In this document: piece by piece, positions 48,805 through 54,240 of the stretch | How positions within the stretch are numbered: position 1 is the first letter of the stretch | Layout: each line of letters begins with the position of its first letter | DNA from: an uncultured Enterorhabdus sp. | GTDB lineage: Bacteria > Actinomycetota > Coriobacteriia > Coriobacteriales > Eggerthellaceae | Direction: 5' to 3' | Assembly (NCBI GenBank): GCA_947649205.1 | Contig: CANSQM010000005.1 | Location: forward strand, 1-64,000 | DNA length: 64,000 bases | Program-made: the position numbers and the translations under genes | The notes under the pieces: model-generated | What the model was told of the DNA's origin: nothing | Seen by the model: the letters and a program-made list of their open reading frames with translations, nothing else | Databases searched by the model: none

Positions 48805-50118
48805 TTAGGGAGCCAAGCTGGTAATGGGGATGACGCAGACGCCGTCGTCGCGAACGTAGGCGTGCTGGCCCAGCCCCTCTACCACGGCAAGGAACGACGG
48901 AGGCTCGGTTCCAGCAGCTTCCATCTTAGCCTTCAGGCGCAGGAGGTTTTTAGCGGCCTGGTCTGCCTGGCTGTGCCCGAGCTTTATTTCGAGGGCGCCC
49001 CATTTCCCGTCATAGGATTCGATAATCGCGTCCACTTCCAGATCGGTGTTATCGCGGTAGTAGCGCACCTGCGCCTCTGAGGCCTCGGCGTATACCAGCA
49101 GGTCGCGCAGGCAAAGGCACTCAAAAAGGAACCCAAAGGCGTTGAGGTCGCCGAGGAGCTTCTGCGGGGTGGCCCCAAGGACGGCCGCCGGTAGAGAGGG
49201 GTCGACGTAGTGGTATTTGGGTCGCTTGTTGATGCGGATTGAAGACCGCAGGTTCGGGGACCAGCCGGGGATTTCCTCAATGACGAAGATGCGCCGAAGA
49301 GCTTGAAGGTAGTCGTCAACCGTTTCCTTGGAGAGCGGCTCGCTCGTTGCATCGGCGGTCATGTCGCGAATCATGGTTTTGGTGGCCGTCGCCTGCTCTG
49401 CGTTGCGGGCGAGCGAATGGAGGAGCCGACTGATTTTCTGCGGATCGCGGGCCACGTCGTCGACGCGCGAGAGATCGTCTTCGGACACCTGGCGCACGTA
49501 ACTGCGGGCGAGCCGCGATGCCCGGCGCAGCTCCATGGCTTGAACGGCGGGCCAGCCGCCACGGAGGACGGCGTCGCAGAGGTCCTCTAAGGTTACGGGA
49601 AGGGCGCTGCCGTCCGGCTTCTCTCCATTGAAGAGGGCCCGCAACGATATGGCCCCCGAGGACCGGTTCGCCTCGAAGAGCGTCATGGGTCGCATACGCA
49701 CCTTTTCGATGCGGCCCACGCCGCTGTGATGCGGTTTGGCCCTGCGGGGAACGGCGGAGCCCGTGAGGATGAACGTATCCCGCTTGCCGCTTCTGTCGAC
49801 GGCGTTGCGGACGGCATCCCACAGCGAGGGCACCTCTTGCCACTCGTCAATGAGGCGGGGATGGGCGCCTTGGAGCGCCTGGTGGGGAGACAAACGCGCC
49901 AGTTCTTGGTTTTGGAAGGCGCCTTCGGTGTCGAGCAGGCAGATCTCGCTGTTGCTGAGACTTCGGGCCGTCCACGTCTTTCCGCAGTACTTTGGCCCCT
50001 CGATGCACACGGCTCCGAAGTCTTCCAAATTCTCGTAAATGAATCTATCGAGAACCCGTGGCTCATAGCCGATGTTGATAAGGTTTCCACGCTGGGGATC
50101 AATGGGTATGCTTATCAT
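48805..50118 (-). CDS. AAA-family ATPase with DUF4143 domain
   Basis: 437 residues. Walker A GPKYCGKTWTA near 45; Walker B-like RLIDEWQEVP near 90; a sensor-type FILTGSAVP near 118. The C-terminal DUF4143 part ends with LEVDAIIESYDGKWGALEIK, again a D-x(n)-E-x-K nuclease-like arrangement. It is divergent in detail from the ATPase at 3197-4375 and has clearly different upstream repeats. The start at 50118 is 47 bp downstream (minus strand) of a four-copy 23-bp tandem repeat. The family is widespread in gut bacteria with no settled function. Confidence 0.85.
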   Translation of the reverse strand: MISIPIDPQRGNLINIGYEPRVLDRFIYENLEDFGAVCIEGPKYCGKTWTARSLSNSEICLLDTEGAFQNQELARLSPHQALQGAHPRLIDEWQEVPSLWDAVRNAVDRSGKRDTFILTGSAVPRRAKPHHSGVGRIEKVRMRPMTLFEANRSSGAISLRALFNGEKPDGSALPVTLEDLCDAVLRGGWPAVQAMELRRASRLARSYVRQVSEDDLSRVDDVARDPQKISRLLHSLARNAEQATATKTMIRDMTADATSEPLSKETVDDYLQALRRIFVIEEIPGWSPNLRSSIRINKRPKYHYVDPSLPAAVLGATPQKLLGDLNAFGFLFECLCLRDLLVYAEASEAQVRYYRDNTDLEVDAIIESYDGKWGALEIKLGHSQADQAAKNLLRLKAKMEAAGTEPPSFLAVVEGLGQHAYVRDDGVCVIPITSLAP

Positions 50119-50165
50119 TGAAACTCCTGGTTATCTAAGGAAATACTGAGATTAAGAGGACTTTC

Positions 50166-50252
50166 ACTCTCCTTTTTTCAACCAGTTTACTCTCCTTTTT
50201 TCAACCTGTCCACTCTCCTTTTTTCAACCAATTCACTCTTCTTTTTTCAACC
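50166..50252 (-). repeat. Four-copy 23-bp tandem repeat upstream of the DUF4143 ATPase gene
   Basis: The 18-bp unit ACTCTCCTTTTTTCAACC begins at 50166, 50189, 50212 and 50235 (the last with one change, ACTCTTC). Units are separated by variable 5-bp words (AGTTT, TGTCC, AATTC), so the period is exactly 23 bp. Read with the gene it is GGTTGAAAAAAGGAGAGT, with a Shine-Dalgarno-like AAGGAG in every unit. The last unit ends 47 bp before the ATG. It is too short for CRISPR and has no flanking cas genes. It looks like a multi-site operator or a leader RNA motif. Confidence 0.8.
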
Positions 50253-52426: not shown

Positions 52427-53971
52427 GTGGGAACCAGGGAAGCAGTGCAGATGGTGACGGGTACCATGGTGGAGGCCGCAGCCGAGGGGCTGCCCGGGCC
52501 CGCGTCGGCGCCGGCGCCGCCCGGCCCAGCGCAGCAAGAGGGCGAGGTGGCCCCGGATGCTCCCGGCGATGATCGCGGGGGCATGCCGGCGCGGTTCTTC
52601 CCCTGGCGCTTCCTCGGCATGGGGCTGCTCATCGCCTGGCTCTGCTGCACCCACATCACGGCCATATTCCCCGGCCCGGGCATCGACCTGGAGCCCCGCC
52701 ACGGGTTCGACTATGCCATGCGCGTCGGCGATGTGGGCATGCTCTTGCTGCTCGGCCTGGCCGCACCGCGGGTGGGGCGCCTCAGCTGCCATGGCGGCCT
52801 GTGCGCCGGGCTGGTGGGACTTACCTGTGCGGGAACGTTGGCCGGCGGTGTTGCTCTCATTCCCGGGGCCGTTCCCGTGCCGCTCCTGAGCGCGGTCGGC
52901 GTGGTAACGGCCCTCGGCGGGGCGGCGCTGTTCTGCCTGTGGGCCGAGATCTACTCCCAGATGGGCATGACGCGCACCATCATGTACGGGGCTCTTTCCT
53001 GCCTGGTCGCTGGTGGTGCGGCGTTCCTCGTGTGCACCATGAAAGCGCCCTATGCCATCCTCGCGACGGCAGCCCTTCCTGTCCTGTCCCTCGGCTGCGC
53101 CTGGCTGAGCCTGCGCGCACTGCCGGGAGAGCCCGCCGGCCAGCCTCGGGCTCGATACGCCGTGCCATGGAAGCTCGTGGCCATTATGGCCGTGGCTGGC
53201 CTGCTGTCGGGCACGTCAGGTCTGGTGCAGGTGGAAGGGGTCGGGGCGATGTTCCGCGTGCTGGCCACCATGCTGGCGGGCGCGGTCATTTTGGGGGTGA
53301 TGTTCGCCCGCCGCGACCGCATGGACGTGCGTTTCCTCGCGAAGGTGGCCCTGCCTCTGGCGGTGCTGGCCCTGGCTCTGGTGCCCTCCGCCCACGGTGC
53401 CCTGGCCTACCTGGTGGCCTTCCTCGTCAAGTTCGCCTACGTGTGGTTCACGTTCTTCGTGCTGCTGGTGCTGGCGGGCATCTGCTATCGCTTCGAGGTG
53501 CCGAGCCTGCGGGTCTTTGCTATTGCCCGCGCTTCTAGCGAGGCGGCCATTCTGGTGGGCGTCATCTTCCGGCGCTTCTTCTGGGAGAGCGGCTATACGG
53601 AAAACGACGCCTTTGTCGCAGCCTTCGCCGTGGCGGGCCTTGCGTTGGTGGGAGCTTGCGTGCTCGTGTGGACGAGCGAGAAGTCCGTCAATGGTGACTG
53701 GGGCGCAGCGGGGGTGGCGCCCGAGACGAACCTGCATGTGGCCGGCCCTCGCGAGCGCTTCATCACCCGTTGCGATCGCCTGTCCGCCGAGCATGGGCTG
53801 ACGGCCCGGGAGGCGGAGATCATGGGGCTCATCGCCCAGGGTAAGACGCGCCGCGAGATAGAGGGCGAGCTGTTTCTGTCCGAGAACACGGTGAAGACCC
53901 ACGTGCGCCACCTGTACGCCAAGTTGGGCGCGAACTCGAAAGCCGACGTCATCGCCCTGTTCGAGGGGTAG
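52427..53971 (+). CDS. LuxR-family regulator with an N-terminal multi-helix membrane domain
   Basis: 514 residues from the GTG at 52427; ATG codons at 52451 and 52466 are alternatives, and a stop at 52418 fixes the upper limit. About twelve hydrophobic helices occupy residues 60-420. The C-terminal LuxR HTH reads GLTAREAEIMGLIAQGKTRR, then SENTVKTHVRHLYAKLGANS. A TACAAT hexamer lies at 52349-52354. It is divergent from the flavoprotein gene 50503-52146, with 280 bp between the two starts. It is the likely sensor-regulator of that reductase. Confidence 0.87.
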   Translation: MGTREAVQMVTGTMVEAAAEGLPGPASAPAPPGPAQQEGEVAPDAPGDDRGGMPARFFPWRFLGMGLLIAWLCCTHITAIFPGPGIDLEPRHGFDYAMRVGDVGMLLLLGLAAPRVGRLSCHGGLCAGLVGLTCAGTLAGGVALIPGAVPVPLLSAVGVVTALGGAALFCLWAEIYSQMGMTRTIMYGALSCLVAGGAAFLVCTMKAPYAILATAALPVLSLGCAWLSLRALPGEPAGQPRARYAVPWKLVAIMAVAGLLSGTSGLVQVEGVGAMFRVLATMLAGAVILGVMFARRDRMDVRFLAKVALPLAVLALALVPSAHGALAYLVAFLVKFAYVWFTFFVLLVLAGICYRFEVPSLRVFAIARASSEAAILVGVIFRRFFWESGYTENDAFVAAFAVAGLALVGACVLVWTSEKSVNGDWGAAGVAPETNLHVAGPRERFITRCDRLSAEHGLTAREAEIMGLIAQGKTRREIEGELFLSENTVKTHVRHLYAKLGANSKADVIALFEG

Positions 53972-54060
53972 GAGCGCCGGGCACTGCCGGATGTTGTTGT
54001 CGCAATGGTCTGCGTGTTTCTGGATCGGTTTATTATGGCTTCGGGGTCTCTCGGGCTTCT

Positions 54061-54094
54061 TTCGCATCTTTCGCAAACTTTCGCAATTTTCGCA
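54061..54094. repeat. Four phased TTCGCA repeats
   Basis: TTCGCA occurs at 54061, 54070, 54080 and 54089, spaced 9, 10 and 9 bp, about one per helical turn. On the other strand the unit is close to TTTGCGAAA, a palindrome. They lie between the LuxR gene (ends 53971) and the solute-binding gene (starts 54241). They may be a cluster of protein-binding sites. Confidence 0.5.
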
Positions 54095-54240
54095 AACAGG
54101 CGCGATGTCCGTGCAGTCAGTGCAGTGAGGGTTCGCTTGATGCGCGGGCGCTGGCTTTTGCCAGAGGTTTCATCCTGATCGTATGAGGGGACGGTGGGGT
54201 CCTTGGCTAAGATGGGGTCGGTAGTCCCGTCGGAAGGATG

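Follow-up and report, generated by a model that had tools for sequence, protein, structure and literature searches.

A private tandem array as the probable operator of each gene in a large ATPase-nuclease family

We found that four tandem repeats before an ATPase-nuclease gene of an uncultured Enterorhabdus sp. are, judging from comparison across homologues, one case of a rule in which hundreds of such genes carry a tandem promoter array of their own. The sequence of the array appears private to each gene, with the 23-bp architecture common to the whole family, and the encoded protein most probably binds its own array to control its own gene. The reading that we favor, at a probability of roughly two in three, is that the array is a private tandem operator by which each ATPase represses its own promoter. 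The relevant features of the window (the whole stretch of 64,000 nucleotides that was analyzed) are as follows.

48805-50118, minus strand: AAA_14-DUF4143 ATPase-nuclease gene, 437 aa, PADLOC PDC-S01 (domain and PADLOC matches)
49630-50049, minus strand: STAND-type ATPase core, residues 24-163, Walker A at 41-48 (domains, model and structural matches)
49207-49443, minus strand: predicted winged-helix domain, residues 226-304, covarying with repeat bases (model and covariation)
49291-49329, minus strand: predicted recognition helix, residues 264-276; repeat positions 8-11 covary with its K264 and E265 (model and covariation)
48808-49197, minus strand: PD-(D/E)XK-like nuclease domain, residues 308-437, with invariant D363, E377 and K379 (alignment and model)
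50166-50252, minus strand: tandem array of four 18-bp copies, at 50235-50252, 50212-50229, 50189-50206 and 50166-50183
50165-50179, minus strand: core site of 15 bp in the last copy, GAAAAAAGGAGAGTG; this portion is still conserved in last copies family-wide (family alignment and last-copy profile)
50119-50165, minus strand: 47-bp leader between array and ATG, with a Shine-Dalgarno-like CAGGAG (sequence and promoter search)

The four copies recur at an exact 23-bp period, with 5-bp words between them that differ from one another, and the array (TRF score 145) ends 47 bp before the ATG at 50118. The array repeat had no match in 100 shuffles of the window, and the array score was reached by 2 of 627 dinucleotide shuffles clade-wide, ruling out chance or low complexity as its source; coordinates and shuffles thus bear out the layout given in the initial annotation. 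The claim that each transcript-sense unit holds AAAAAAGGAGAG stands for three copies and fails for the most upstream one, with GGTTGAAAAAAGGAGAGT exact in three of the four and changed at one base (GAAGAGT) in the other. The period, described as close to two helical turns, corresponds to about 2.2 turns. A search of the whole genome of origin placed the repeat at this gene only, and the two other matches at three mismatches equal the number expected from a reversed-pattern control. We rejected a wider regulon, having found the repeat nowhere else in this genome and no viral contig with two copies in register, and also a CRISPR array, as the spacers are only 5 bp long versus unique spacers of tens of bases. 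A separate small tandem repeat, CTTTCGCAA, with a period of 9, lies at 54059-54097 of the window, between an ORF ending at 53971 and one starting at 54238.

To place the gene product, we compared its sequence and predicted structure with known systems. AAA_14 and DUF4143 occur together in a single gene of the window, and the PADLOC models of PDC-S01, an AAA_14-DUF4143 phage-defense candidate, match its protein over the full length (PDLC04790, 231.7 bits, E 3e-69, residues 19-435), as they also match other tested DUF4143 proteins. An AlphaFold2 model built with 70 homologues (pLDDT 94, pTM 0.93) lays out an ATPase core, a helical domain, the winged helix (226-304), and then a C-terminal domain, in which D363, E377 and K379 are invariant across 70 sequences, as expected of PD-(D/E)XK nucleases. 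The model therefore agrees with the earlier description of an ATPase with a nuclease-like C-terminus and points to a putative nuclease. The closest solved folds for the ATPase and winged helix are the archaeal STAND ATPases PABY2304 (2qen, Z 13.7) and SSO1545 (2fna, Z 12.9), followed by the NB-ARC modules of plant NLRs and CED-4 (Z 10-11). Because these are the nearest folds, we take the window protein to be a STAND ATPase, with NB-ARC-like ATPase, helical and winged-helix domains present in the model. The match to 2qen and 2fna stops near residue 315, leaving the nuclease domain outside it, and we know of no arrays described for PABY2304 or SSO1545. The ATPase core also resembles ORC2; MalT (8bob) and Can2/Cdn1 are among the Foldseek matches of the model, the latter at a low TM-score. 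Our search of the PDB found no solved sequence homologue of the window protein.

We then looked for arrays before homologous genes. We began with 80 homologues in named genomes of bacteria and archaea plus 8 in viral contigs, then added paralogues from the genomes behind those homologues and further members from the window's family and from one phylum; an array was called when the best period among 12 to 60 reached a score of at least 14. The clade of the window protein contributed 209 distinct upstreams, drawn from many phyla of bacteria and archaea; 168 of them show a best period of 23 or 46 at this score, compared with 10 of 281 other genes of the same loci at array score. Period 23 appears in one alone of these other genes, a divergent tex-like gene at locus L111. 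The repeats before this gene are L111 array units in reverse complement, and we read them as probably the same array as that of the ATPase gene. The L111 ATPase gene has at least six near-identical 23-bp repeat copies upstream, and the tex-like gene may be co-regulated with it. About 20% of the clade lacks an array at the score threshold, and an alphaproteobacterial plasmid member (~32% identity) likewise shows none at that threshold. Among relatives from the window's own family, most homologues have their own array, different in sequence and with a period of 23. Clear 23-bp arrays are also present in archaeal MAG loci (L066, L089, L095, L143), and public plasmid records with independently annotated starts show the array as well, two from Collinsella aerofaciens and one from Bacteroides ovatus. 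Repeats at random positions unrelated to ATPase genes had been named as the finding that would speak against a functional link; we looked for them, and the association between array and gene held.

The arrays of paralogues within one genome are distinct: a difference of at most two bases out of 15 occurs in only 1 of 92 same-genome pairs, whose proteins are 92% identical. As each paralogue keeps its own array sequence, paralogues of one genome should not cross-regulate. Arrays from the same genome are about as different as those from different genomes at equal protein identity, which gives no sign of extra selection for insulation between paralogues. DUF4143 domains number 15 in the window's own genome and up to 45 in one 1.9-Mb genome (G163, behind L119, Bifidobacterium panos).

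Beyond this clade, arrays precede 57 of 118 genes of other DUF4143 clades at array score, 54 of these 57 having a period of 22/23, 44/46 or 32/33; periods 23 and 33 are roughly one helical turn apart. Many units of the 32/33 clade (L021, L024, L026, L242, L257, L275 and others) share a core like AAAAATGTG. The ATPase_2-DUF234 proteins (PADLOC PDC-S27) likewise combine an ATPase, a winged helix and a PD-(D/E)XK-type C-terminus with private tandem arrays, but differ in having a period of 15 instead of 23 and a C-terminal domain of a different family. The best period is 15 in 18 of their 28 testable upstreams, and 12 of those 18 reach a score of at least 12, a raw count without shuffle control. 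Several ATPase-PD-(D/E)XK families thus seem to have private tandem arrays in common, at a step particular to each family. At the ATPase_2-DUF234 loci (L378-L407; e.g., L400 and L406), several period-15 units resemble palindromes (e.g., TAATGATCATTA), in contrast to the 23-bp units, which are not palindromic.

The array also accompanies its gene between genomic contexts. In one relative from the genus (G001), homology spans window positions 48806-50227, that is, the ORF and the array, within unrelated surroundings, so array and gene were co-transferred in this one case. Viral contigs also encode related proteins, as do plasmids, of which many are conjugative. The insertion site of this cassette could not be delimited from an empty site, the relatives' flanks not being syntenic on both sides. 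In another genome (G004; L013, 1480-1520), a deletion has removed the promoter region and the first 73 codons, leaving the array joined to mid-gene ATPase sequence; the allele appears from its sequence to be a natural decay intermediate.

To define what is shared among arrays that differ in sequence, we aligned 94 of them circularly. A single motif emerged, which 88 of the 94 carry in one orientation with respect to the gene; its information content is 747 bits versus 301-330 with columns permuted. The unit consensus from 178 arrays is ccAAAttgccGAATaAAAtttct. In the last copy before the gene, conservation is confined to positions 1-15 and A-richness is lost at 16-18, suggesting that the 23-bp unit consists of a 15-bp site and an 8-bp spacer. 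We next measured background-corrected mutual information between protein columns and repeat positions, finding that the winged helix holds 27 of the 60 strongest residue-base pairs versus 10.8 expected (enrichment by residues, p = 4e-5). The coupled pairs include R/K264 with G8, D/E265 with G11, and D265 with C9, which look chemically sensible, and residues 279, 286 and 299 on the wing side track base 2. With one protein per 60%-identity cluster, the 264/8 pairing holds in 12 of 14 versus 4 of 45 (p 1e-7) and the 265/11 pairing remains at p 1e-5. The window pair fits this code, its protein having K264 and E265 and its unit G8 and G11. The nuclease domain holds 15 of the top 60 couplings, and phylogeny contributes to the couplings because some fall outside the winged helix in this way; the winged-helix excess nonetheless appears to stand out. 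These results support the earlier suggestion that a protein binds the repeats in register, and that protein is very probably the ATPase itself.

The position of the array relative to promoter elements bears on what such binding would do. Of 168 arrays, 110 have a strong -10 within reach of their last copy, and 58 of these 110 elements lie 14-19 bp from base A3, peaking at 16, versus 10.5 in shuffles; a second peak lies one period further. Roughly half of the homologues whose -10 is clear thus have the last site directly upstream of it. Many near -10 elements lack a good -35. This commonest arrangement places the last site at about -30 to -16, which suggests occlusion of the polymerase. A minority of arrays, such as that of L111, lie upstream of an apparent complete promoter, and the window leader has no clear -10 at the family spacing.

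Taken together, these observations suggest a mechanism in which ATPase protomers would assemble cooperatively on the array in head-to-tail order, with one protomer at each 15-bp site, 23 bp from the next, and the winged helix behind the STAND ATPase core making the contact. Where the last site directly precedes the -10, in DNA that RNA polymerase must touch, assembly on the array would repress the gene, keeping a potentially toxic ATPase-nuclease at a low level, and array and gene would travel as a minimal cassette. Binding, and repression rather than activation, are what we infer from the family-wide array, its fixed period, its common motif and orientation, the winged-helix covariation and the -10 spacing. 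Some observations sit less easily with autorepression: the window has no evident -10 at the family spacing, arrays upstream of apparent complete promoters make simple occlusion less obvious, couplings outside the winged helix carry a phylogenetic contribution, and about a fifth of the clade falls below the array threshold.

The main rival, which we consider rather unlikely, is positive autoregulation, in which the activated ATPase would assemble on the array and switch its own gene on as a feed-forward alarm, much as MalT acts. MalT is a STAND protein that acts on direct repeats (malT boxes) at promoters; there, however, a separate LuxR-type domain binds at target genes, whereas here the STAND winged helix itself appears to read only the array of its own gene. 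The STAND fold, the direct repeats in one orientation, the arrays just upstream of an apparent full promoter and the many near -10 elements without a good -35 would all suit such an activator, but a protein bound at the commonest position of the last site should block the polymerase. We regard as quite unlikely that the array serves as a scaffold as much as an operator, storing or nucleating an ATPase-nuclease that waits there to be freed or activated on phage attack: the exact 23-bp register and its multiples suggest protein-protein contacts along the DNA, and the NLR-like fold and nuclease motif fit as well, yet operator function by itself accounts for the data. A related proposal, unlikely in our estimation, is that the array is a loading dock that keeps the NLR-like ATPase-nuclease inactive, as a head-to-tail oligomer, at its own promoter. 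The winged helix that controls STAND activation would then also read the array. If the complex were lost, for example through a phage attack on host DNA or transcription, the gene would be derepressed and the nuclease released as well, making the protein an immune receptor that guards its own promoter.

The remaining readings fare worse. Another, host-encoded transcription factor is a very improbable binder: the window array alone does not tell what binds it, but the array is private to each ATPase, covaries with the winged helix of that same ATPase, and moves with the gene across phyla into unrelated surroundings. It is likewise highly improbable that the array is a set of replication iterons with the ATPase as an ORC-like initiator. 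Iterons have similar periods, the core has its likeness to ORC2, and some members reside on plasmids, but chromosomes carry many paralogues (15 in the window's own genome, 45 in another) and the array keeps a fixed spacing to the -10. The initial annotation had also offered that the repeats act in RNA, and leader regulation of this kind would suit an array in one orientation before the start codon. We found this extremely unlikely: the window leader folds no better than its shuffles (z +0.46) and matches no Rfam family, and the rigid 23-bp period persists in relatives whatever their sequence. In most relatives with a clear -10, moreover, that element lies downstream of the array, which puts the array upstream of the transcript.

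Autoregulated tandem operators are a known kind of control, and RptR is a recent example from a defense island, autorepressing its defense operon through direct repeats at the -10 (PMC12255303). RptR is a 9-kDa dimer that uses 9-bp repeats with a palindromic core and is a dedicated regulator, not the ATPase-nuclease itself (PMC12255303). What is apparently new here is a very large ATPase-nuclease family with an array of its own for each gene and a quantized period, apparently read by the STAND winged helix. We found no description of such arrays in the literature searched, which did not extend to bioRxiv and most subscription journals, so that a prior description is possible; a single paper in the literature searched names DUF4143. 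PDC-S01 is known as a genome-context candidate, with no mention of an array, operator or mechanism in the literature found. It has been named the fourth most common defense across prokaryotes (9,986 archaeal and 29,494 bacterial cases), with validation pending for most PDCs at the time of writing (PMC12988326). The ATPase-nuclease family is thus very common in bacteria and archaea, yet unstudied, and the conserved array, with a readable residue-to-base code, gives a testable handle on what the protein binds, where, and by which residues, while also supplying many orthogonal ATPase-operator pairs. Should the ATPase be an immune effector, control by its own STAND winged helix would unite sensing, transcription control and effector in one polypeptide.
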